Below, piece after piece: positions 16,548 to 49,320 of a DNA stretch of 64,000 bases. The stretch is from Sphingomonadales bacterium (GTDB taxonomy: Bacteria; Pseudomonadota; Alphaproteobacteria; SMXS01): contig JALHLV010000003.1 in assembly GCA_022844405.1 (NCBI GenBank), forward strand, positions 1-64,000. Reading direction: 5' to 3'. The first letter of the stretch is position 1, and each line of letters starts with the position of its first letter. The notes below the pieces were generated by a model. The model made no database searches, was not told the origin of the DNA, and saw nothing but the letters and a program-made list of their open reading frames with translations. A program made the position numbers and the translations under genes.

Positions 16548-17012
16548 TTGCCCGAGATGAGCCTGATCGACCTGAAGGCCGCACTCCCACGCGGCGGCCG
16601 TCTGCTGGGCCTCGACCTCGGCTCGAAAACCATCGGCCTGGCCGTCAGCGACGGGGCGCTGATGGTGGCGAGCCCCATCGAGACCATCCAGCGCACCAAA
16701 TTCACCGCTGATGCCACCAAGCTGCTGGCCATCGTCGACGGGCGGCAGGTGGCCGGGCTGGTGGTGGGGCTGCCGGTCAACATGGACGGGACGGAAGGGC
16801 CGCGCTGCCAGTCGACGCGGCAATTCGCGCGCAACCTGCTGGGCATCCGCGACATCGCCCTCGCCTTCTGGGACGAGCGGCTCTCCACCGCGGCCGTGCA
16901 ACGGGCGATGATCGACGCGGATGTCACGCGGGCGAAACGAGCCAAGGTCGTTGACCAGATGGCCGCCGGGTATATCCTGCAGGGCGCGCTGGATTTTCTG
17001 CGCCGCAACTGA
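16548..17012 (+). CDS. ruvX: RuvX/YqgF, Holliday-junction resolvase-like pre-16S rRNA nuclease
   Basis: A 154-residue RNase H-fold protein that is complete, in contrast to the truncated copy at 680. It has LGLDLGSKTIGLAVSD near the N-terminus, VVGLPVNMDG in the middle, and FWDERLSTAAVQ and DQMAAGYILQ in the second half, which supply the conserved acidic residues. YqgF is needed for 16S rRNA 5' maturation in E. coli. The start is TTG 16548, in register with the ATG of the truncated copy; ATG 16557 is the alternative. It heads the housekeeping block with pyrB 42 bases downstream. Confidence 0.93.
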   Translation: MPEMSLIDLKAALPRGGRLLGLDLGSKTIGLAVSDGALMVASPIETIQRTKFTADATKLLAIVDGRQVAGLVVGLPVNMDGTEGPRCQSTRQFARNLLGIRDIALAFWDERLSTAAVQRAMIDADVTRAKRAKVVDQMAAGYILQGALDFLRRN

Positions 17013-36542: not shown

Positions 36543-36941
36543 ATGGACGCCTATGTCTATCCCGGCATCGTCAGCAGCCTGGCGCTGCTCGTCTGCTATT
36601 ACACCCTGCTGCGGTCGGGAGTAGCCCGGCGCCGCTTCAAAATCGAGCCGCCCGCGCACAGCGGACCCGAAGAATATGAACGCTACGTCCGGGCCCATCA
36701 GAACACGGTGGAGCACCTGGTGCTGTTTCTGCCTGGCCTGTGGCTCTTCTCCTACGCCGTTGATCCGGTATGGGGAGCCGCCATCGGTGCGACCTGGCTG
36801 CCCGCCCGCCTGTTCTACGCCCACGGCTATTACCGGTCGGCCCCCGCGCGCCGGCCCGGCCTGCTGGCCAGCATGCCGGCGGTCTATATCCTCGTGCTGG
36901 GCTCTCTCGTCGGCTTCGTGATCAAACTCTTCCCGGGTTGA
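36543..36941 (+). CDS. MAPEG family membrane protein
   Basis: A 132-residue protein with four hydrophobic helices and the MAPEG signature around YERYVRAHQNTVEHLVLFLPGLW, including the Glu-x-x-x region and the Arg of the glutathione site (WLPARLFYAHGYY). Family members are glutathione transferases or peroxidases of the membrane. GGAGGGGGC lies before the ATG. A TATAGT hexamer at 36508 could be its -10 element. The ATP-grasp gene follows 13 bases after. Confidence 0.88.
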   Translation: MDAYVYPGIVSSLALLVCYYTLLRSGVARRRFKIEPPAHSGPEEYERYVRAHQNTVEHLVLFLPGLWLFSYAVDPVWGAAIGATWLPARLFYAHGYYRSAPARRPGLLASMPAVYILVLGSLVGFVIKLFPG

Positions 36942-36954
36942 AGCCCCGATCACC

Positions 36955-38802
36955 ATGAGCACCGTGCCCGTTGTCCGGATATTGCGGACCTATTACGGAC
37001 CCAGCCTGTACTCGCTGCATCCGGTGATCCTGTGGACGCTCGATGTTGAACCAGGCATGGCGCCCGTCCTGGCCGACGCAGCTTCGGCCGCGTTCCAGGC
37101 CAGCTATCCTGAGGCCAATCCGCCACTTGCGGCCGCGGATGCCGACCCGATTCTCAGGGCGATCGGGCTCATGGCGGCCTGGGCGAAGGAACTGCAGAAC
37201 TCCGCCAACGGCCTGATCGACGAGGCGGGAGCAACCGTGATCGCGGTCGGCCGGGTCGTCGGCTGGTGCGGATTTCACGACGAACGGGTCGGGCGGCTCG
37301 CGCTCGATATCGCCGCCGCATCCATCGCCAGCGCCGCGGGAATAAAAATCGCCGACGCCGACCTTGCCACGGCCCGGCGGCACTTCGACACCGAGTCCGC
37401 CTCCCGCCATCCCGGTCGCTACAGCCGGCCACTTGCCGTCGGCGCCCGCGCTCATGGTATTCCCTACGAGCCTTCCCTCTTCTACTCAATTTACTGGCAC
37501 TATGGCTGGGGCCGCGCCGGCCGCCTCCATCTCGAATGCACGAGCAACGGGGACGGCCTTATCGGTCAGCAGATCGCCAGGAACAAACGGGTAACCCGGG
37601 AGTTCCTGCGCAGCCTTGGTTTTCCAACGGCCGCGCATATACCTGTCGTTTCGGCCGACGACGCGGTGGCGGCCGCCGCAAAGATGAACGGACCGGTCGT
37701 CGTGAAACCCGCGAACCGCGGCAAGGGTCGCGGCGTCGCGGTCGGCATCGAAAGCGAGGAAGAAATCCGCGCCGCTTTCGCCGGCGCGAGGGAATGGAGC
37801 AGCGACCCGATCCTCGTCGAGCGGTTCGTGCCCGGAAGCGACCACCGCCTGCTGGTGATCGGCGGCAAGCTGGTCGCGGCCGCCCGGCGTGAACCGGCGA
37901 CCGTCACGGGCGACGGCCAGAAAACAGTCCGGCAACTGATCGCCGAGTTCAGCGAGCGCCGTGCCGCCGATCCGGTTATCGCCATGTATGGTTCCGATAT
38001 CCCGGTCGACGCGACGCTGGACGAGGAACTGCGCCGGCAGGGCGCCGACCTCGAGTCGATCCCCGCGTCGGGCGTCAGTCTGCGGCTTCGCGGCAATGCC
38101 AATGTGAGCACAGGCGGCACGCCGACCGACGTCATGCCCGCCGTGCACCCCGATGTCCGGGCCATGGCGGAAGCCATATCACGCAACGCCCAGGTCTATG
38201 CGCTGGGCATCGACTACATCACCACGGACATTACCAGGTCATGGGCCGAGACGGGCGGCGCGATCATCGAGATCAATCTGGCGCCGGGCCTCGACGTCCA
38301 CATCATCAGCGGTCTTGGCGAGGCTGAGATCGGCATGGCCGTCCTCGGCGATGGCATCGGAAGGATACCGGTCGCGGTCGTCATCGCGCCATTGGCGGAA
38401 CAAGCCGCGCTGCTCGCGCGGGTCCGCGCTGCGCTCGATCCCTCGCCGGGTTGGCGGTGCGGCCTGCTGGGTAATGGGGAAATGACGGTCGGCGCGACCA
38501 GGCTCGTGCCCGCGGGCAGGTCGAGCCATATCCATGTGCGGCAGCTCCTGCAGAACCGCGACTGCGATGCCGCGCTGCTCTGCGTAACCCCCAACAGCGT
38601 CGCGGCGCTCGGCTTTCCGGTCGACCGCTGCCTGTTGACGGTCCTGGGGGAAGACCTGCCGGCCCCCGGCCTCATGCGCGCGCTGGCCGCCCGTTGCTCC
38701 GAGCGCGTTGTCACCGTCTCCACGGCCATGGGCTGGCCCGGCCAGGGAACCATCGACGCGCTGATGTCGGTACTGGGCCCCTCGGATCCCGTCGGCGAAT
38801 AG
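36955..38802 (+). CDS. Cyanophycin-synthetase-like ATP-grasp protein with degenerate Mur-like C-terminus
   Basis: A 615-residue protein. Residues ~8-160 resemble the N-terminal domain of cyanophycin synthetase (ILRTYYGPSLYSLHPVIL). Residues ~185-450 are an ATP-grasp domain with Lys251 in VVVKPANRGKGRGVAV, RFVPGSDHRLLVIGGK and the Mg ligands Glu439/Asn441 in IEINLAPGLD. In CphA the Mur-ligase domain follows with the P-loop GTNGKTT; here the matching place reads IPVAVVIAPLAEQA and the chain ends ~155 residues later. It is likely a single-site amide or peptide ligase. Substrate unknown; it is not expected to make normal cyanophycin alone. Confidence 0.8.
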   Translation: MSTVPVVRILRTYYGPSLYSLHPVILWTLDVEPGMAPVLADAASAAFQASYPEANPPLAAADADPILRAIGLMAAWAKELQNSANGLIDEAGATVIAVGRVVGWCGFHDERVGRLALDIAAASIASAAGIKIADADLATARRHFDTESASRHPGRYSRPLAVGARAHGIPYEPSLFYSIYWHYGWGRAGRLHLECTSNGDGLIGQQIARNKRVTREFLRSLGFPTAAHIPVVSADDAVAAAAKMNGPVVVKPANRGKGRGVAVGIESEEEIRAAFAGAREWSSDPILVERFVPGSDHRLLVIGGKLVAAARREPATVTGDGQKTVRQLIAEFSERRAADPVIAMYGSDIPVDATLDEELRRQGADLESIPASGVSLRLRGNANVSTGGTPTDVMPAVHPDVRAMAEAISRNAQVYALGIDYITTDITRSWAETGGAIIEINLAPGLDVHIISGLGEAEIGMAVLGDGIGRIPVAVVIAPLAEQAALLARVRAALDPSPGWRCGLLGNGEMTVGATRLVPAGRSSHIHVRQLLQNRDCDAALLCVTPNSVAALGFPVDRCLLTVLGEDLPAPGLMRALAARCSERVVTVSTAMGWPGQGTIDALMSVLGPSDPVGE

Positions 38803-38931: not shown

Positions 38932-41145
38932 ATGCTTGAGGGCGCAAACCTAGGCGGTATCAACGCCGTCGGCGCAATCGTTTGGGGCGCCACTGCTTGC
39001 GTATCCCTCTACGTGCTGATCACCATCCGCAGTATGCGGATTCTGTTCGGCACAGCGTCGCTGCTGTTGATTGCTCTGGCCGCCTGTCTGCAGGCTGGAT
39101 TCATCGACCTAACGGGCCTCGACATTGCGTCGCTCGGCGGCAGCCAACTGCTGCTGACGCTCAGCAGTATCCCCATGCTCCTGTCCGTGCTGCTGGCCGC
39201 CCAGTACCGGCAGCAGCGCAGTATCCAGGAAACCGCGCTCGGCAATTCCCTCAGCGGCGTCGCCATCGCCGGCCTGGACGGCAAGCTCCAATACGCCAAC
39301 GACTCGTTTCTCACGCTGGTGGGCGCGAACGGGCTCAAGGATGTGCTGGGCCGTCACGCCCATGAGTTCTTTCTCGACCCCGAAAGAGCCCGGGATATCC
39401 TGGAGATCATCCGCGACAAGGGCAGCTGGCGGGGCGAAGTCATCGCCCGAGGCACCGACGGCAGCAGCAAGGAAGTCGACCTTCATGCCTCCTTGACCCA
39501 CGATTCCGCGGGCCTACCGACCGCCATCATCGGCTCCTTCGCCGACATGAGCCACGGCCGCGAGAAGGAACGGCAGCTGCGCTTCAGCAATTCGCTGCTC
39601 ACCAATCTGGTCGAGAGCGCACCGATCCTGCTCTGGACGGCCGATGCTGGCGGTGAGATCGGCCTCGTTTGCGGCCGTGGTCTCGATCGTATCAAGCAAC
39701 TGGCCGATGACGGCGCCGGCGTCGTCAGGCCGGCCCCAGGCACGTCGATCTACGAGCTTTTCCACAATGTGCCGGAGATCAGGCGGCACGTGGCGCGCGC
39801 GCTGGTCGGCAAGCCGGCGCGGTTCGAGTGGCAATGCAGCGATTCGGTGGTGTTCGAGGCGCAGATCAGCCCGCGCCACGGCCCCGGCGGCACGATCACC
39901 GGCATCGTCGGCGTGGCGCTGGATGTTTCCACCCGCATTGCCGCGGAGCATGCGCTCGAGCGGAACATCAAGCGCCAGGTCGACATCGAGCAGCGGCTCG
40001 ATCGGGCCCAGCGGCTGGAGGCTGTCGGCCGCCTGACCGGCGGCGTCGCCCATGATTTCAACAATCTGCTGACCACGATCCTCGGCAACATCGACCTCAT
40101 CGTCGAGCGCGTCGAGAACGACCCACAGCTAAGGCTCTATGCCGAGTCGGCGGCGCGAGCCGCCGAACGCGGCTCCGAACTCACGCAGCGGCTGCTGACC
40201 TTCTCGCGCCAGCAGGCGCTCCGTCCACGGCCGACCGATGTCCACGCGCTGCTGGATGACCTGACCGGCATGCTCGCGCGCACCCTGCCGGAAAACATCT
40301 CCATCGCGCGGGATTTCGACACCGTGCCCGTGCGTGCCGCTATCGATCCTGGCCAACTCGAGAACGCCATCCTGAATCTTGCGCTCAACGCCCGCGACGC
40401 CATGCCGGCAGGCGGCACGCTGACCATTTCCACACGCGCCCACCCGCGTCGTGCAGGATTGCATGCCGGCCTGGCAGACCGCCTGGTCGCCATCGCCGTC
40501 AGCGACACCGGAACAGGCATGAGCCAGGAGGTGATGGAGAAAGCGTTCGAGCCGTTCTTTACCACCAAAAAGGGCGAGATGTCGGGCGTTCCCGGCTCCG
40601 GCCTGGGGCTAAGCATGGTTTATGGGTTCGCGGCCCAGTCCGGTGGGCATGTCGAGATCGAGAGCATCCCGGGCAAGGGCACCACGGTGACGCTGCTCCT
40701 GCCCTTTGCAGAAGACCTTGAGGCACATACCGAGGACAAGATGACCGACTTGCGTGAGATGCAGCAAGGCAGCGACAGGATCATGGTTGTCGAGGATGAT
40801 CCCGACGTCCGCCAGTTCATCGTCAATGCACTCAAGCGCCTCGGCTATTCGGTGGTGTCCGCCGAGAACGGGCCCGAGGCCATGCAGGTCGCCCGGGAAT
40901 CGGGCAAGATCGACCTGCTGATTTCCGATGTGGTGCTGCCGGGCGGCATGACCGGTCCCGACGTGGCCGACGGGTTCCTGGAGATTTTCCCGAAGGGCAA
41001 GGTACTGTTCACCTCGGGCTATATCGGTGACGATCTGGCGATGCGGTCACGCCTGGAAAGCGACGTGGAGCTGCTCTCTAAGCCGTATACGCTCCAGACG
41101 CTGGCCGCCAAGGTGCGAACCGCGCTCGACCCCATGCTTCACTGA
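38932..41145 (+). CDS. Hybrid sensor histidine kinase with PAS domains and receiver
   Basis: A 737-residue membrane kinase. Order: three hydrophobic helices (to ~90), PAS domain ~95-210 (SGVAIAGLDGKLQYANDSF), a second PAS ~220-340, HisKA with the phospho-acceptor His374 in GGVAHDFNNLL, HATPase with N-box NAILNLALNARDAMP, G1 DTGTGM, F EPFFTTK and G2 GSGLGL, then a C-terminal receiver with Asp666 (LLISDVVLPGG) and the conserved Lys in LLSKPY. No response regulator lies next to it, so its output partner is unlinked or the receiver acts on a separate regulator. The signal is unknown. Confidence 0.93.
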   Translation: MLEGANLGGINAVGAIVWGATACVSLYVLITIRSMRILFGTASLLLIALAACLQAGFIDLTGLDIASLGGSQLLLTLSSIPMLLSVLLAAQYRQQRSIQETALGNSLSGVAIAGLDGKLQYANDSFLTLVGANGLKDVLGRHAHEFFLDPERARDILEIIRDKGSWRGEVIARGTDGSSKEVDLHASLTHDSAGLPTAIIGSFADMSHGREKERQLRFSNSLLTNLVESAPILLWTADAGGEIGLVCGRGLDRIKQLADDGAGVVRPAPGTSIYELFHNVPEIRRHVARALVGKPARFEWQCSDSVVFEAQISPRHGPGGTITGIVGVALDVSTRIAAEHALERNIKRQVDIEQRLDRAQRLEAVGRLTGGVAHDFNNLLTTILGNIDLIVERVENDPQLRLYAESAARAAERGSELTQRLLTFSRQQALRPRPTDVHALLDDLTGMLARTLPENISIARDFDTVPVRAAIDPGQLENAILNLALNARDAMPAGGTLTISTRAHPRRAGLHAGLADRLVAIAVSDTGTGMSQEVMEKAFEPFFTTKKGEMSGVPGSGLGLSMVYGFAAQSGGHVEIESIPGKGTTVTLLLPFAEDLEAHTEDKMTDLREMQQGSDRIMVVEDDPDVRQFIVNALKRLGYSVVSAENGPEAMQVARESGKIDLLISDVVLPGGMTGPDVADGFLEIFPKGKVLFTSGYIGDDLAMRSRLESDVELLSKPYTLQTLAAKVRTALDPMLH

Positions 41146-43944: not shown

Positions 43945-46900
43945 TCAGTGGAAGAACCGGCCCTTGTCCAGGAACGCTTCCGGCCGTTCCACGCGCTGGT
44001 CGGTCAGTAGGGTCAGCCAGCCGTTGATCTCGTCGACTTTCTCGACGATCAAGTGGATGACGCCCTCGGCGCTCTCGATCTTGCCCTCGCAGGCCATCAG
44101 TCGCGCGGTCAACGTCGGCCGCCGGTATTTTTCATAGACCCCCGGGAACACCACCAGATTGGCCACGCCGGTTTCGTCTTCCAGGGTGATGAACATCACG
44201 TCCTTGGCCGTGCCGGGACGCTGACGCGCCAGCACCACACCCGCCACCACGATTCTGCTGCCATTGCGCGCCGTCAACAGGTCCCGCGTCGGCCGCGCGC
44301 CGGCGGCCGTCAGACGCTCCCGCAGCAGTGCCACCGGATGCTGTTTCAGGGAAAGCTGCGTGGTCTGGTAGTCGGCAATCACATGCTCACCCAGCCCCAT
44401 CCCGGGCAGATGACGTTCCTTCTCGACCTTCGCGCCGTAGTCCAGTGCCTCGAACAGCGGCAGCGGCTTGGTCTCGGTCAGCCGCTTCACTGCCCACGCC
44501 GCCTGCCGCCGGTCCAGCCCCAATGACTGGAACGCGTCCGCCTCGGCCAGCCGCACCAGCGTCCTCGGCATCAGCCCGGCCTTCTGCCACAGGTCGAGCG
44601 GCGACCGGTAGCCGCTGCCACGGCACTCAACCAGCTTCCCGGCCTCGGCCTTGGCTAATCCCTTGATCTGCCGCAGCCCCAGCCGCAACGCGGGTCGCGA
44701 ACCATCGACCGGCTCCAGCGTGCAATCCCAGTCGGACAGGTTCACGTCGGCCGGCCGCACCTCGCCCTCGTGCTCGCGCAGATCGCGCACCAATTGCGCC
44801 GGCGCATAGAATCCCATCGGATAGGAGTTCAGCAGCCCGGCGGTGAACGCCTCCGGGTAATGGAACTTCAGCCACGACGACACATAGGCCAGCAGCGCGA
44901 AGCTGGCCGCATGGCTTTCCGGGAAGCCGTAGTCGCCGAACCCTTCGATCTGCCGGAAGCAGCGCTGGGCGAACTCCCGCTCATAACCGTTCCCGACCAT
45001 CCCTTCGATGAACTCGTCGCGGAACTGATCGATCGTGCCCAGATGCCTGAAGGTGGCCATGGCGCGCCGCAGCCTGTCGGCCCGCGACGGGCTGAACCCG
45101 GCGGCGACGATGGCGATCTTCATCGCCTGTTCCTGGAACAGCGGCACTCCCAGCGTGCGCTTCAGGACCTCCTCCAGTTCCTTGCTGGGATAGTCCACCA
45201 GCTCCGGATTCTTCCGCCGCCGCAGATAGGGATGCACCATGTCGCCCTGGATCGGCCCCGGCCGCACGATCGCCACCTCGATCACCAGATCATAATAGGT
45301 CTTGGGCCTGAGCCGCGGCAGCATGGCCATCTGCGCCCGGCTCTCGATCTGGAAGACACCGACCGTGTCCGCTCTCTGAATCATCTCATAGACGGCCTTG
45401 TCGTCCTGGGGAACTGTCGCGAGATCAAGGGTTTGTCCATAATGTTTACGGATGAACTCGAACGTCTTCCGGATCGCCGTCAGCATGCCGAGCGCCAGCA
45501 CGTCGACCTTGATCAGGCCCAATTCCTCTAGATCATCCTTGTTCCACTCGATGACCGTGCGGCCCTCCATGGCCGCGTTCTCGATCGGCACCACCTCGCA
45601 CAGCGGCCCGCGCGACATCACGAATCCACCCGTGTGCTGCGACAAATGCCGCGGGAACCCGCGCAGCTCCCCGGCCAGCTCAAGCGCCTGCATCAGCGTC
45701 TTGTCGCCGGGATCGAGCCCTTCCTCCCGCGCCTTGTCCTCGTCCAGAGGACCCGACCACCGGGTGATGGTCCTCGACAGCTTGTCGATCAGGTCCGTGC
45801 TCAGTCCCATGGCCTTGGCCACATCACGGATCGCGCCCTTGCTGCGGTAGCAGATCACGGTCGCGACGATGCCGGCCCGCTCGCGGCCGTACTTCTCGTA
45901 GATGTACTGCATCACCTCTTCGCGCCGCTCGTGCTCGAAATCCACGTCGATGTCCGGCGGCTCGTTCCGGTCCGCCGATACGAAGCGTTCGAACAGCAGC
46001 TCGACCTCGACGGGATTGACCGAGGTGATGCCCAGACAATAGCAGACCACCGAATTGGCCGCCGATCCACGGCCCTGGCACAGGATGTCCTGACTGCGGG
46101 CGAACCTGACCACATCATTCACGGTCAGGAAGTAGGGCGCATACTCCTTGTAGGCGATCAGCTTCAACTCGTCGTTGATGCCTTTTCTCACCTTGTCAGG
46201 GATGCCATCCGGATAGCGCCACGCGGCTCCCTTCCAGGCCAGAAACTCCAGCTCTTCCTGAGGGTTGCGGCCGTTTTCTGTGATCTCGTGGGGATATTCG
46301 TAGCGCAGCTCGTCCAGCGAGAACCGGCATTGCTCCAATACCTCCATGGTCCGCAGGACCGCCTCGGGATGCTGGCGGAACAGCCGTGCCATCTCGTCGG
46401 GCGGCTTCAGGTGCCGCTCGGCATTGGCTGCCAGCCGCCAGCCGGCGGTGGTGATCGTGCAACGCTCGCGGATGCAGGTCAGCACGTCCTGCAAGCGACG
46501 CCGCCCGGGTTCGTGATAGTGCACGTCGCCCGTCGCCACCATCGGCGTCCGCATCCGCACCGCCAGCGCGTCGAGCCGCTCCAGTCGCTTGGCGTCGTCG
46601 CCCCGGTAGTAATGGGTCGCGGCCAGATAGAGCGGCGCCTGCAGCCCATCTCGCCACAGTTTCAGCTCGGCTTCATATGCTTCGTCCAGCACCACCGGCG
46701 GCACCGCGATGAACAGGTTGTCTTCGGCTGCCTCGCACACATCCGCGCGGGTCAGCCGGCACTCGCCCTTGGGCGCCGCCCGCCGTCCCTTGGTGATCAG
46801 CCGCGACAGCCGCGCATATCCCGCCCGGTTGCGTGACAGGCACAGCACGCCCGGCGCATCCGTCACGTCGAGGCGCGCCCCCACCGCCAGCCGGATATTG

Positions 46901-47073
46901 TACTCCTTGGCCGCCACATGCGCCCGCACCACGCCCGCCAGCGTGTTGCGGTCGGCGATGGCCACCCCCTCCATGCCCAGCGCCGCCGCCTGCCCGATCA
47001 GTTCATATGGATGAGAACCACCCCGCAAGAAGCTGAAATTACTGGTGATCTGCAATTCGGCATATGCCGTCAC
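43945..47073 (-). CDS. dnaE2: Error-prone DNA polymerase (ImuC)
   Basis: DnaE2/ImuC is the C-family polymerase that carries out damage-induced mutagenic synthesis with ImuA and ImuB. The 1042-residue protein has an N-terminal PHP domain (ELQITSNFSFLRGGSHP), the polymerase acidic residues in PPDIDVDFEHERR and KVDVLALGMLTA, and the shorter C-terminus (OB domain, no tau-binding tail) typical of DnaE2 against DnaE1. Its GTG start overlaps the imuB stop by 4 bp (GTGA), so translation is coupled. Expression should follow the LexA box at 49340. Confidence 0.96.
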   Translation of the reverse strand: MTAYAELQITSNFSFLRGGSHPYELIGQAAALGMEGVAIADRNTLAGVVRAHVAAKEYNIRLAVGARLDVTDAPGVLCLSRNRAGYARLSRLITKGRRAAPKGECRLTRADVCEAAEDNLFIAVPPVVLDEAYEAELKLWRDGLQAPLYLAATHYYRGDDAKRLERLDALAVRMRTPMVATGDVHYHEPGRRRLQDVLTCIRERCTITTAGWRLAANAERHLKPPDEMARLFRQHPEAVLRTMEVLEQCRFSLDELRYEYPHEITENGRNPQEELEFLAWKGAAWRYPDGIPDKVRKGINDELKLIAYKEYAPYFLTVNDVVRFARSQDILCQGRGSAANSVVCYCLGITSVNPVEVELLFERFVSADRNEPPDIDVDFEHERREEVMQYIYEKYGRERAGIVATVICYRSKGAIRDVAKAMGLSTDLIDKLSRTITRWSGPLDEDKAREEGLDPGDKTLMQALELAGELRGFPRHLSQHTGGFVMSRGPLCEVVPIENAAMEGRTVIEWNKDDLEELGLIKVDVLALGMLTAIRKTFEFIRKHYGQTLDLATVPQDDKAVYEMIQRADTVGVFQIESRAQMAMLPRLRPKTYYDLVIEVAIVRPGPIQGDMVHPYLRRRKNPELVDYPSKELEEVLKRTLGVPLFQEQAMKIAIVAAGFSPSRADRLRRAMATFRHLGTIDQFRDEFIEGMVGNGYEREFAQRCFRQIEGFGDYGFPESHAASFALLAYVSSWLKFHYPEAFTAGLLNSYPMGFYAPAQLVRDLREHEGEVRPADVNLSDWDCTLEPVDGSRPALRLGLRQIKGLAKAEAGKLVECRGSGYRSPLDLWQKAGLMPRTLVRLAEADAFQSLGLDRRQAAWAVKRLTETKPLPLFEALDYGAKVEKERHLPGMGLGEHVIADYQTTQLSLKQHPVALLRERLTAAGARPTRDLLTARNGSRIVVAGVVLARQRPGTAKDVMFITLEDETGVANLVVFPGVYEKYRRPTLTARLMACEGKIESAEGVIHLIVEKVDEINGWLTLLTDQRVERPEAFLDKGRFFH

Positions 47074-48593
47074 GCGAACACCCCGTGCAGGAACCAGCGC
47101 GGCTGGACCCCGGCGTCATACAGGCCCTGCCGATACAGCCAGTAACGCCGGCCTTCCTCATCCTCCACCTGGTAATAGTCCCGTGGCGGCTCGTCCTTCA
47201 GCCACCACTCGCCTTCCAGTCGCTCCGGACCGTCGGCGGCTTTCACCCGGTACGCCTTGCCGTGTCGGCGAAACAGCACCGGCGGATCGTCGGGCACCGG
47301 CGCCATGGTCTCCACCGGCTCCGGCACCGCCAGCAGCCGCAGCGGCCGCTCGCGTCCCGCCGGCCACTCCGTCGCAGCGGAGGATGAGAACGGCGCGGCA
47401 TCCTCCACCGCCCGCTCGGGCAGCCAGCTCTGGCGCGGTGTTGGCCGGGTGATACGGCCAAAGCCGAAACGGTTGCCCAGCCGGTCGACCAGCTCGGCGA
47501 GCCCGGCGCCGCCGCCGCCCTTCACCTGCCAATTCTCCTGCGCCGGCTTCAGCGCCTCCACGCGGGTCGCCGAGACCGTCACCACCTCGATCCCGAACCC
47601 CGGATTTACCTCATCCAGTTTTTCGGCAAACAGCCGGAACAGCGGCTCCACCCAGCGCGATGGCCGGCTGGTGCCCACATGGATGCGCGCCGTGGTCCCG
47701 TCCACCCGGTGGCAGGCCAACGTCAGTTGCCGCGCGCCCTGGCCCGACTGGGTGAGACTCCGGCACAGCTCGTCCAACAATGTCCGCAGCCCGGTCTCGA
47801 CGCCGTCGCGCGTCATCAGCGGCTCCAGGCAGGCGACCCGCGCCTCGTGGGCCGGCACCGGCGCGATCGGCGAGATCGGCTCGTCGACCACACCCAGCGC
47901 CTGATCCAGCCGTTGCACCGGCTCGGCCCCGAACCGCTCGGCCAGCGCCCGCCGCTCCAGCGGATAGAGCGCGCCCAGCGTCCGCAGCCCAAACGAAGTC
48001 AGGCTGTCGAGCGTATCGCCCGGCAGCCGCAGGGTTGGCAGCGGGAACGTCTTCAGCGCCGTCATGGCGTCGGTCAGGCTGTCGAACGGCGGCAGGATGG
48101 CCGTTTCCTGCTGCCGCGCCCGACAGGCCGCCCAGGCGGCGCCCGGTGTATCGGCGGTCGCCGTCAGCGGCGTCAGGCCGAAGCCCTTCAGCCGCGCCAC
48201 CAGGTCCGCCGCCAGCGCCGCCTCGCCGCCGAACAGATGCGCGCAGCCGGAAATGTCGAGGAACAGGCTGTCGCCTTCCGCCAGCCCCGCCCAGGGCGTG
48301 TAGCGCGTCGCCCAGCTGGCCAGCCGCACCAACGCCGCCCGGTCAGCCGCCGCGTTGACGAAGCGGGTCTGCAGCGTCGGCTGCACCGCCCGCGCGTCCG
48401 CGAGCACCATGCCGGGTTTCAGACCGCCATGCAGCGCCCGGCGGTTGACCGCCGCCAGCACCAGCCGGCCGCGCCGCTCCTCGATGGCCGCCAGCACCTG
48501 CTTGGCCAGTTCCGGCTCCCGCCGCACCAGCCGCTCGCTGACCAGCCACGGGAACCAGACATTCATGATGCGCCTTTTATGGCCTTTCTTCAT
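47070..48593 (-). CDS. imuB: ImuB, inactive Y-family polymerase-like protein
   Basis: A ~507-residue Y-family homologue that acts as the beta-clamp-binding hub of the ImuA-ImuB-DnaE2 mutasome. It begins MNVWFPWLVSERLVRR after a short basic leader. The palm region that in active DinB polymerases carries the DxD and SxDE acidic residues reads FLDISGCAHLFGG, so polymerase activity is not expected. I chose ATG 48593, 4 bases after the imuA stop; ATG 48566 is a plausible shorter start and the longest form (48620) would overlap imuA by 23 bp. Confidence 0.92.
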   Translation of the reverse strand: MKKGHKRRIMNVWFPWLVSERLVRREPELAKQVLAAIEERRGRLVLAAVNRRALHGGLKPGMVLADARAVQPTLQTRFVNAAADRAALVRLASWATRYTPWAGLAEGDSLFLDISGCAHLFGGEAALAADLVARLKGFGLTPLTATADTPGAAWAACRARQQETAILPPFDSLTDAMTALKTFPLPTLRLPGDTLDSLTSFGLRTLGALYPLERRALAERFGAEPVQRLDQALGVVDEPISPIAPVPAHEARVACLEPLMTRDGVETGLRTLLDELCRSLTQSGQGARQLTLACHRVDGTTARIHVGTSRPSRWVEPLFRLFAEKLDEVNPGFGIEVVTVSATRVEALKPAQENWQVKGGGGAGLAELVDRLGNRFGFGRITRPTPRQSWLPERAVEDAAPFSSSAATEWPAGRERPLRLLAVPEPVETMAPVPDDPPVLFRRHGKAYRVKAADGPERLEGEWWLKDEPPRDYYQVEDEEGRRYWLYRQGLYDAGVQPRWFLHGVFA

Positions 48594-48597
48594 GGCA

Positions 48598-49320
48598 TTA
48601 CCCGGCAATTCTGATGTCATCAGGCAGAACTTCCGTCTCCCCTGCCTCGGTAATCGCCGTCCAGCCCTTCGGGCTCCAGACCACCGTCCACGCCGCTGGG
48701 CGTCCGCCCCGGGAACGGATCAGTTCAACCCGCCAGCATGGCCATCCCACGCCCGCGCCATCCGGCAGGCTGGGCATGGACGTCACCTGCCAGCGGCTCA
48801 GCGCCGTCGCCGCGCCGCCGCGCCCGGTCTCGCCCAGCAGCAGGCAGGTCACCCCGCCGGTTTCCGCCGCCAGCTGCAACCGCCGGCTGGCGGTGAAGTC
48901 GGCGGCGCGAATCTCGCCCACCACCGCCGACAGCGCGCCGCAGTTCAGCGCTTCCTCGATGGCCCACAGCATGTCCGCGTCCCGGCTGATCCCCGAGACG
49001 GTCAGCACCGCCCCCGGCTTCAGCCCGAACCGCGCCAGCCCCGGCATGTAGAGGTCGTTCCCCCGCTCAAGCCACAGCACCGGCCTGCCGTCCATGACGT
49101 GAAGCCGCGCCAGCAGCGCCGCGCAGAACCCGGTCGCCGCGCCGTCGCCATGCACCTCATGCACCCCGGCCAGCGGCAACCCACCTTCCGGCAACGCCCG
49201 GTCGATGGGCTTCATGCCGAGCGGCAGCACCGGATGCCCCGCCGCCTGGCCGACGCCCTCGATCCGGCGGATACGGTCACGCAACACCGCCACCGCACTG
49301 CTGTTCATGGTCCCTGGCAT
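48598..49320 (-). CDS. imuA: ImuA, SOS mutagenesis protein (RecA/SulA-like fold)
   Basis: A 240-residue RecA-like protein and the first gene of the imuA-imuB-dnaE2 operon. It contains the central block GLPLAGVHEVHGDG, where a canonical P-loop would be, FCAALLARL, VLWLERGNDLYMPGL and an RRLQLAAETGGVTCLLL block, all usual for ImuA. The start is ATG 49320 (MNSSAVAVL could start four codons later), 20 bases after the LexA box. Confidence 0.92.
   Translation of the reverse strand: MPGTMNSSAVAVLRDRIRRIEGVGQAAGHPVLPLGMKPIDRALPEGGLPLAGVHEVHGDGAATGFCAALLARLHVMDGRPVLWLERGNDLYMPGLARFGLKPGAVLTVSGISRDADMLWAIEEALNCGALSAVVGEIRAADFTASRRLQLAAETGGVTCLLLGETGRGGAATALSRWQVTSMPSLPDGAGVGWPCWRVELIRSRGGRPAAWTVVWSPKGWTAITEAGETEVLPDDIRIAG

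Follow-up and report, generated by a model that had tools for sequence, protein, structure and literature searches.

The gene at positions 36,955 to 38,802 of the window, by which we mean the whole 64,000-nucleotide stretch of a Sphingomonadales contig analysed here, encodes a 615-residue relative of cyanophycin synthetase (CphA). The protein is probably, though by no means certainly, a single-site ATP-grasp carboxylate-amine ligase that descends from cyanophycin synthetase and serves the making of tailored peptides or of surface or secreted glycoconjugates, and not nitrogen storage. Its fold, the retention of its catalytic residues, the loss of its Mur site, its paralogy, the purifying selection acting upon it and the gene orders of its relatives were all computed, and it is from these that we infer what its substrates, its product and its role at the cell surface may be.

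Domain layout and kinship to cyanophycin synthetase

The protein is composed of a CphA N domain, an ATP-grasp G domain and the first part of a Mur core. The features of the locus are as follows.

36543..36941, + strand: MAPEG-family protein, 132 aa, ending 13 bp upstream of the ligase gene (PF01124, 1e-17)
36955..38802, + strand: predicted CphA-derived single-site ATP-grasp ligase, 615 aa (ORF, profile and structure matches)
36955..37449, + strand: N domain, residues 1-165 (approximate boundary; profile alignment, motif scan)
37450..38346, + strand: G (ATP-grasp) domain, residues 166-464 (approximate boundary; K211, K251, R298, R312, D420, E439 and N441 kept)
38293..38295, + strand: codon of D447, at the place of CphA1 Arg458 (alignment; residue role from PMC9427784)
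38347..38799, + strand: Mur-core remnant, residues 465-615, without the P-loop and without the Mur C-terminal (lid) domain
38386..38403, + strand: place of the lost Mur P-loop, APLAEQ (A478-Q483) against GTNGKT (profile alignment)
38932..41145, + strand: PAS/hybrid histidine kinase, 737 aa, starting 129 bp downstream of the ligase gene

An initial annotation, made from the sequence alone, had held the N-terminal and ATP-grasp regions to be CphA-like, and this is borne out. The best NCBIfam-type match is PRK14016 (cyanophycin synthetase; 2.7e-86, 290.5 bits against a cut-off of 877), and the CphA1 model TIGR02068 matches at 1e-69 with 235.5 bits, its cut-off of 850 not being reached; nor are those of the models for GshF (119.7 bits, cut-off 425) and N-acetylglutaminylglutamine synthetase (169.7 bits, cut-off 569). 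The matches of a phmmer search of PDB sequences were CphA1 chains (7lgn at 6.8e-55) and the CphA2 chains 7ta5 and 8fxh, and when the window protein and four relatives were compared profile to profile with eight CphA1s, residues 1-578 aligned with CphA1 residues 1-593 at a probability of 100, an E-value of 2.1e-73 and 27% identity. The comparison of a predicted structure with CphA, which the annotation had proposed as a check, gave a concordant result: for an AlphaFold2 model built on 18 sequences (pLDDT 90.5, pTM 0.87), the top Foldseek match was the CphA2 of Gloeothece citriformis (7ta5; E 9.1e-45, TM 0.80 of the query), with CphA1s and the Stanieria CphA2 ranked below it. By VIA-align a CphA1 chain (Z 30.4) and 7ta5 (Z 29.5; rmsd 3.4, 563 residues aligned) are tied, and the next family is bifunctional glutathione synthetase (Z 23.0). 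The relatedness of the window protein to CphA is far beyond chance.

The Mur segment is indeed short and devoid of its P-loop, as had been reported, and breaks off ahead of the Mur C-terminal domain. The three forward frames between 36955 and 39000 contain no P-loop pattern, and a motif scan of the N domain found no HxxEH endo-cyanophycinase motif. A frameshifted or truncated CphA1 is ruled out by this absence of the pattern in the forward frames to 39000, by frames below the stop codon that hold no Mur sequence, and by the like ends of the orthologues in G002, G003 and G005 (G-numbers denote genomes, G000 being that of the window); a frameshift restoring a full Mur domain in these relatives, which the annotation had named as grounds for refutation, was thus not found.

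Active site and the cyanophycin cycle

In TeCphA1, according to the active-site account in PMC9427784, Lys220 and Lys261 contact the ATP phosphates, Asp431 and Glu450 the Mg, Arg309 the C-terminal carboxylate of the donor, and Arg323 and Asn394 the beta-carboxylate of the incoming Asp, whose alpha-carboxylate lies close to Arg458; His267 and Glu215 are also named, and mutants at His267 and Arg458 are impaired. Mapped by pairwise alignment to SuCphA1, with Te and Su numbering taken as equal, the first four correspond to K211, K251, D420 and E439, so that the ATP and Mg residues are all present, as the annotation had it, and R298, R312 and N383 stand for Arg309, Arg323 and Asn394. Three residues are changed: Arg458 to D447, His267 to K257 and Glu215 to Q206. 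Across 52 aligned rows K211, K251, R298, D420 and E439 are invariant (52/52), and R312 and N383 are found in 50 and 48 rows, respectively. In a looser set of 114 P-loop-less ORFs, which takes in a few fragments and probable betaproteobacterial tandem second copies and so does not consist wholly of relatives of the window clade, K211 is kept in 96 (with 16 gaps), K251 in 109, R298 in 113, and D420 and E439 in 112 each, but R312 only in 71 and N383 only in 88.

The site of Arg458 provides a concrete and testable marker of substrate change. Among the aligned rows it is occupied by Arg in 12 of 13 Mur-bearing proteins and in four P-loop-less ones, by Asp in the window protein and nine others, by Gly or Ser in 17, and by Phe or Tyr in the two CphA2s. 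For the 178 distinct CphA-like ORFs at the fetched loci, Arg was counted in 53/64 P-loop-bearing against 9/114 P-loop-less ORFs and Asp in 0/64 against 13/114, counts for which we claim no p-value since the rows are related. The His267 site is less constant among the four orthologues, which carry K, K, T and Q. Many genomes (e.g. G605, G708, G573) have a long CphA-like frame with a shorter second one close by, and such second copies perhaps account for the 33 P-loop-less ORFs, of 114, in which Leu occupies the Arg458 site.

With these residues in place, the acyl donor would be held by R298, as by Arg309 in CphA1, ATP would phosphorylate its terminal carboxylate, and an amine lying beside S385, N383 and R312 would attack the acyl phosphate to give one amide bond, the Mur half presumably being a structural remnant only. 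D447 in place of Arg458 would be expected to repel a free alpha-carboxylate, and the incoming amine would therefore probably not be a free amino acid held by that group; a cationic or carboxylate-capped amine may be the better guess for the acceptor. The guess is a soft one because position 458 varies with substrate, being Phe/Tyr in CphA2 and Met/Tyr in GshF (PMC9427784); CphA2 likewise lacks Arg458 and yet uses beta-Asp-Arg, and four P-loop-less rows, as noted, keep the Arg.

The annotation had further reasoned that cyanophycin synthesis needs both sites and that the protein hence likely makes another amide or a peptide of one amino acid type. The premise fails: CphA2, which is without the Mur P-loop and lid, joins beta-Asp-Arg dipeptides directly (PMC9427784) and works with a single active site (PMC10206079), and since it polymerises in this way the loss of the Mur site alone is no argument against cyanophycin. 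That cyanophycin is probably not made can nevertheless be concluded on other grounds, namely the absence of CphA1 and cyanophycinase, the changed acceptor site and the gene context of relatives, in view of which cyanophycin is an unlikely product and fits poorly.

In the window genome (3.78 Mb in 41 contigs, completeness 100) there is no CphA1 over the TIGR02068 cut-off, no Peptidase_S51 match and no cyanophycinase match. We extended the search to genomes of the same genus or class in which CphA-like proteins were matched, and retained 20 of 22; G048 and G050 were dropped because their matches (592 and 553 aa) group with a G024 protein that we take, in part from the tree, to be an N-acetylglutaminylglutamine synthetase. 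The cut-off of the cyanophycinase model TIGR02069 is exceeded in five of the 20 (G024, G085, G158, G221, G298), exactly the five in which that of TIGR02068 is exceeded, and there is no cyanophycinase match in the remaining 15, which are without CphA1 over the cut-off. Such a split, 5/5 against 0/15, has a chance of 1 in 15,504 if the genomes are independent, and of 1 in 1,287 when counted by genus (5/5 against 0/8). Among the 15 cyanophycinase-free genomes, however, are some with long CphA-like proteins under the cut-off, Mur-bearing ones included: the scores are 812 bits in G010, 694 in G183 and 611 in G357. Neither CphA1 nor cyanophycinase exceeds its cut-off in the Erken MAG, Ramlibacter, the Burkholderiales MAG, Shimia, G674 or G412, and many of the genomes sampled look like MAGs; for the betaproteobacterial ones the absence of cyanophycinase says little because, according to PMC5178258, no gene for it had been detected in that class. 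Besides cyanophycinase and CphA1, the cyanophycin loci of G221 (L121) and G158 (L122) encode another CphA-like protein, some 587 aa long, whose GTNGKT lies near residue 200.

Copy number, descent and gene neighbourhoods

The window genome has eight CphA-like copies, and the Mur place is without a P-loop in all of them, as in the 19 other genus rows examined. One copy (L009) does contain GKNGRT at residue 219, a chance occurrence that precedes the ATP-grasp domain and is not at the Mur place, and a copy of 999 aa from the genus (G001_c) lacks the P-loop yet keeps a tail of Mur length. Matches to the CphA model at E <= 1e-30, a few of them long or Mur-only, number 8 in the window genome, 6, 2, 4, 3, 3 and 4 in G001 to G006, and 13 each in G183, Ramlibacter sp. 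WS9 and the Burkholderiales MAG; three genomes from other genera of the same family gave none at that threshold. Proteins resembling the window protein are uncommon: 17 of 386 same-class genomes gave a match at 1e-40, CphA1 being among the matching proteins in five, and 35 of 397 genomes of the phylum did so at 1e-60, mostly through proteins that are long CphAs by frame length, the copy counts per genome in both surveys being lower bounds (three candidates were scored per genome). A plasmid survey matched 100 records, none with 80% of the query covered, and the genes named among the 40 matches listed are CphA, Ngg and, once, CapA. In the titles and opening lines of the abstracts listed we found no description of a P-loop-less CphA family in proteobacteria, which does not prove its absence from print. 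In G183 (L108:7626-14389) a divergent Mur-bearing CphA-like protein overlaps a multi-domain glycosyltransferase/TPR protein of 1254 aa.

Three presumed N-acetylglutaminylglutamine synthetases served to root a tree built from 52 G domains, which is weak at its deep forks (94/61 and 87/64); it groups cyanobacterial CphA2 with CphA1 and apart from the window clade, which is made up of P-loop-less proteins and one Mur-bearing protein, G010_C8. Forcing all P-loop-less rows together with CphA2 costs 27 log units (AU p 0.055); forcing them together without CphA2 costs 3.6 (p 0.30). By these tests, a common origin with cyanobacterial CphA2 appears disfavoured but is not rejected, and a loss of the Mur site separate from that in CphA2 appears favoured but is not proven.

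The ligase gene is under purifying selection, yet fast-changing. Against the G003 orthologue dN/dS is 0.36 (NG86; dN 0.31, dS 0.88) and against that of G005 it is 0.28 (dN 0.37, dS 1.31), and the open frame is kept in four orthologues; these ratios rule out a pseudogene. The MAPEG and kinase genes in the same comparisons give dN/dS of 0.10-0.13 (dN 0.08-0.12, dS 0.63-0.95), so that the dN of the ligase is 3-4 times that of both neighbours, with dS at most 1.1-2.1 times theirs.

The order MAPEG-ligase-kinase recurs in G003 and G005, with MAPEG 13-25 bp upstream in these and the window genome; in G002 the ligase precedes the kinase without an adjoining MAPEG gene, the kinase thus lying downstream of the ligase in four genomes of the genus. 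In G001 and G004 the MAPEG and kinase genes form a pair, 94 and 145 bp apart between ORF ends, with no gene between, and MAPEG matches occur in all 10 genus and family genomes searched. Because the pair stands without the ligase in G001 and G004, and the ligase without MAPEG in G002, the ligase is to be regarded as an accessory gene of which MAPEG need not be the partner. The earlier remark that a MAPEG gene lies just upstream is correct as to position, but a functional link is weak, and the MAPEG gene is probably a mere neighbour. Elsewhere in the window, the genes at 680-1189 and 16548-17012, which we take to be of RuvX type and which have near-identical starts, flank epimerase-type and glycosyltransferase-like genes, as if duplicated copies bracketed a surface-polysaccharide block, and 43945-49320 looks like what we assume to be a DnaE2-ImuB-ImuA mutagenic repair cassette.

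The window copy adjoins just MAPEG and the kinase and has no group-transfer gene beside it. Of its sisters in the genome, L009 and L013 adjoin methyltransferases; L010 a formyltransferase-like protein and a permease; L011 an AlkP-like protein, a GT1 and two sulfotransferases; L014 a sulfotransferase; and L015 a P450, a GT2 and a Phosphodiest protein, L012 being without a co-directional partner. Only the L015 protein passes the Pfam cut-off for Phosphodiest; those of L011, L164 and L173 are called AlkP-like on the strength of 37-38% identity to it over about 533 aa. A neighbourhood survey of P-loop-less homologues, also suggested by the annotation, revealed gene orders, around some of them, that recur across Alpha- and Betaproteobacteria, the class of a genome being read from its record title and kinship code. 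Ligase, AlkP-like protein and GT1 follow one another in the window genome, Ramlibacter WS9 (L164) and the Burkholderiales MAG (L173), with identities across the three of 43-52% for the AlkP-like protein and 45-59% for GT1. A methyltransferase-ligase pair is common to the window genome and the Burkholderiales MAG (methyltransferase 56% identical); ligases in G183 and G241 are also preceded by methyltransferases, which have no detectable similarity to those of that pair. A fusion of ligase and Glyco_tranf_2_4, the latter Pfam-tested in G006, is found in G006 and in the Burkholderiales MAG (51% over 942 aa, Asp at the 458 site), where it comes after an OEP outer-membrane protein and an RTX/Ig protein. 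In Ramlibacter sp. WS9 (L062:8001-13614) three tandem P-loop-less ligases have a DUF4214 protein of 1411 aa upstream and, downstream, a protein of 205 aa that matches nothing in Pfam or NCBIfam and two ABC transporters, which we presume to be exporter-like; in Shimia abyssi RTX and cadherin-like proteins lie upstream of the ligase. Ramlibacter WS9 (L163:3091-7862) and the Burkholderiales MAG (L172:3476-8033) also have in common an order of protein, ligase and protein, the first 72% identical and without NCBIfam match, the third 62% identical, with GT11 below cut-off in the MAG.

As a control, 105 other ORFs from the fetched stretches of the window genome were searched (106 less one sulfotransferase belonging to the L011 operon), and the 25 commonest of 175 Pfam families included no methyl-, sulfo-, formyl- or glycosyltransferase; this control is crude and bounds without counting, as families matching two genes or fewer may be hidden. 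That gene orders are common to Alpha- and Betaproteobacteria argues for pathways rather than chance neighbours. A role in anti-phage defence was rejected, none of eight proteins having a match in PADLOC-DB. The products of the sister genes would likely be passed on to tailoring enzymes, of which kind the window copy has no linked partner, and operons of ligase, AlkP-like protein and GT1, of methyltransferase and ligase, or of ligase fused to glycosyltransferase may each yield different tailored peptides or surface glycoconjugates.

On this basis we propose tentatively, with somewhat less than even confidence, that there exists a CphA-derived ligase family whose Mur half was lost separately, which reaches some 8-13 copies per genome in some Alpha- and Betaproteobacteria, and which, with changed acceptor sites and in small conserved operons, would constitute a modular, ribosome-independent toolkit for amide bonds. 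If true, what was once an enzyme of storage-polymer synthesis has given rise to many one-bond ligases per genome, whose products the recurring gene orders of Ramlibacter sp. WS9 would make directly searchable. This family-level finding, of multi-copy ligases in recurring orders outside the cyanophycin cycle, is of more interest than the single gene. For each of the three members tested, the best-matching curated models are those named 'cyanophycin synthetase', a name that is thus easily transferred; the cyanophycin cycle itself was not found.

Rival readings and known systems

The closest competitor in architecture is a CphA2-like enzyme that polymerises beta-Asp-Arg, and the truncated Mur core behind N and G domains, the top Foldseek rank of 7ta5, the Lys at the His267 site (K257, as in both CphA2s) and the missing HxxEH motif, likewise missing from CphA2 in the account of PMC9262961, are all consistent with it. 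We nevertheless consider it unlikely, as the genome has neither CphA1 over the cut-off nor cyanophycinase as a source of beta-Asp-Arg (uptake from outside being possible), the tree places CphA2 with CphA1 (though at AU p 0.055), Asp447 is not Phe or Tyr, the orthologues vary at the His267 site, and eight divergent paralogues share one genome. Similarly improbable is a small-molecule amide synthetase paired with MAPEG, which might, for example, attach a polyamine or basic amino acid to the end of a glutathione-like peptide, after the logic of glutathionylspermidine: the close spacing of the two genes in three genomes, the GshF-like G domain and an Asp447 that would suit a cationic amine speak for such a pairing, which is weakened by the sites in G001 and G004 that have MAPEG and kinase without the ligase, by the G002 ligase without MAPEG, and by the slow evolution of MAPEG against the fast evolution of the ligase.

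A RimK-like ligase that modifies a secreted adhesin or another protein is suggested by the company of certain Asp-site relatives, namely the Ramlibacter WS9 tandem copies with their DUF4214 protein and two ABC transporters, the Burkholderiales MAG relative with RTX/Ig and OEP proteins, and one in G183 with an RTX protein. These are, however, only 4 of 13 Asp-site ORFs, from three genomes; no RTX-type or exporter gene was recognised beside the other nine, whose neighbours were judged mostly by the starts of their sequences and not all Pfam-tested, and the window copy has none beside it, so that we rate the reading as quite unlikely. Very unlikely indeed is a decaying CphA relic of little or no function. 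The lost Mur site, a protein evolving 3-4 times faster than its neighbours and the failure to find the gene at the MAPEG-kinase site of two congeners are what decay would produce, but the dN/dS of 0.28-0.36, ATP-grasp residues intact in 52/52 rows, the open frame in four orthologues and a confidently predicted fold are not.

The single-site ligase for tailored peptides or glycoconjugates, which remains our preferred reading, can be set beside several known systems. With CphA1 the window protein shares an alignable stretch (residues 1-578), the ATP and Mg residues, Arg309, Arg323 and Asn394; unlike CphA1 it is without the Mur P-loop and Mur C-terminal domain, and His267 and Arg458 are replaced. 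GshF and N-acetylglutaminylglutamine synthetase have a related ATP-grasp domain and one-bond amide chemistry, but the window protein falls far below the cut-offs of their models. CphA2 (7ta5 from Gloeothece citriformis; 8fxh/8fxi from Stanieria) is alike in having N, G and a truncated M that lacks P-loop and lid, in its Lys at the His267 site and in the missing HxxEH; it differs in being cyanobacterial and tied to beta-Asp-Arg, where the window genome has eight paralogues and no cyanophycin cycle that we could find, and in having Phe or Tyr where the window protein has Asp. The window protein works like a CphA2-type single-site ligase; we do not name it a CphA2, given the Asp at the Arg458 site, the missing host pathway and a tree that sets the two apart without being decisive (AU p 0.055). 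A CphA-derived single-site family does not figure in the passage of PMC4431377 on linked ligase sets, which describes linked peptide-ligase genes for secondary metabolites, teichuronopeptides and O-antigen; in those sets ligases are grouped with other ligases or acyltransferases, as they are here.
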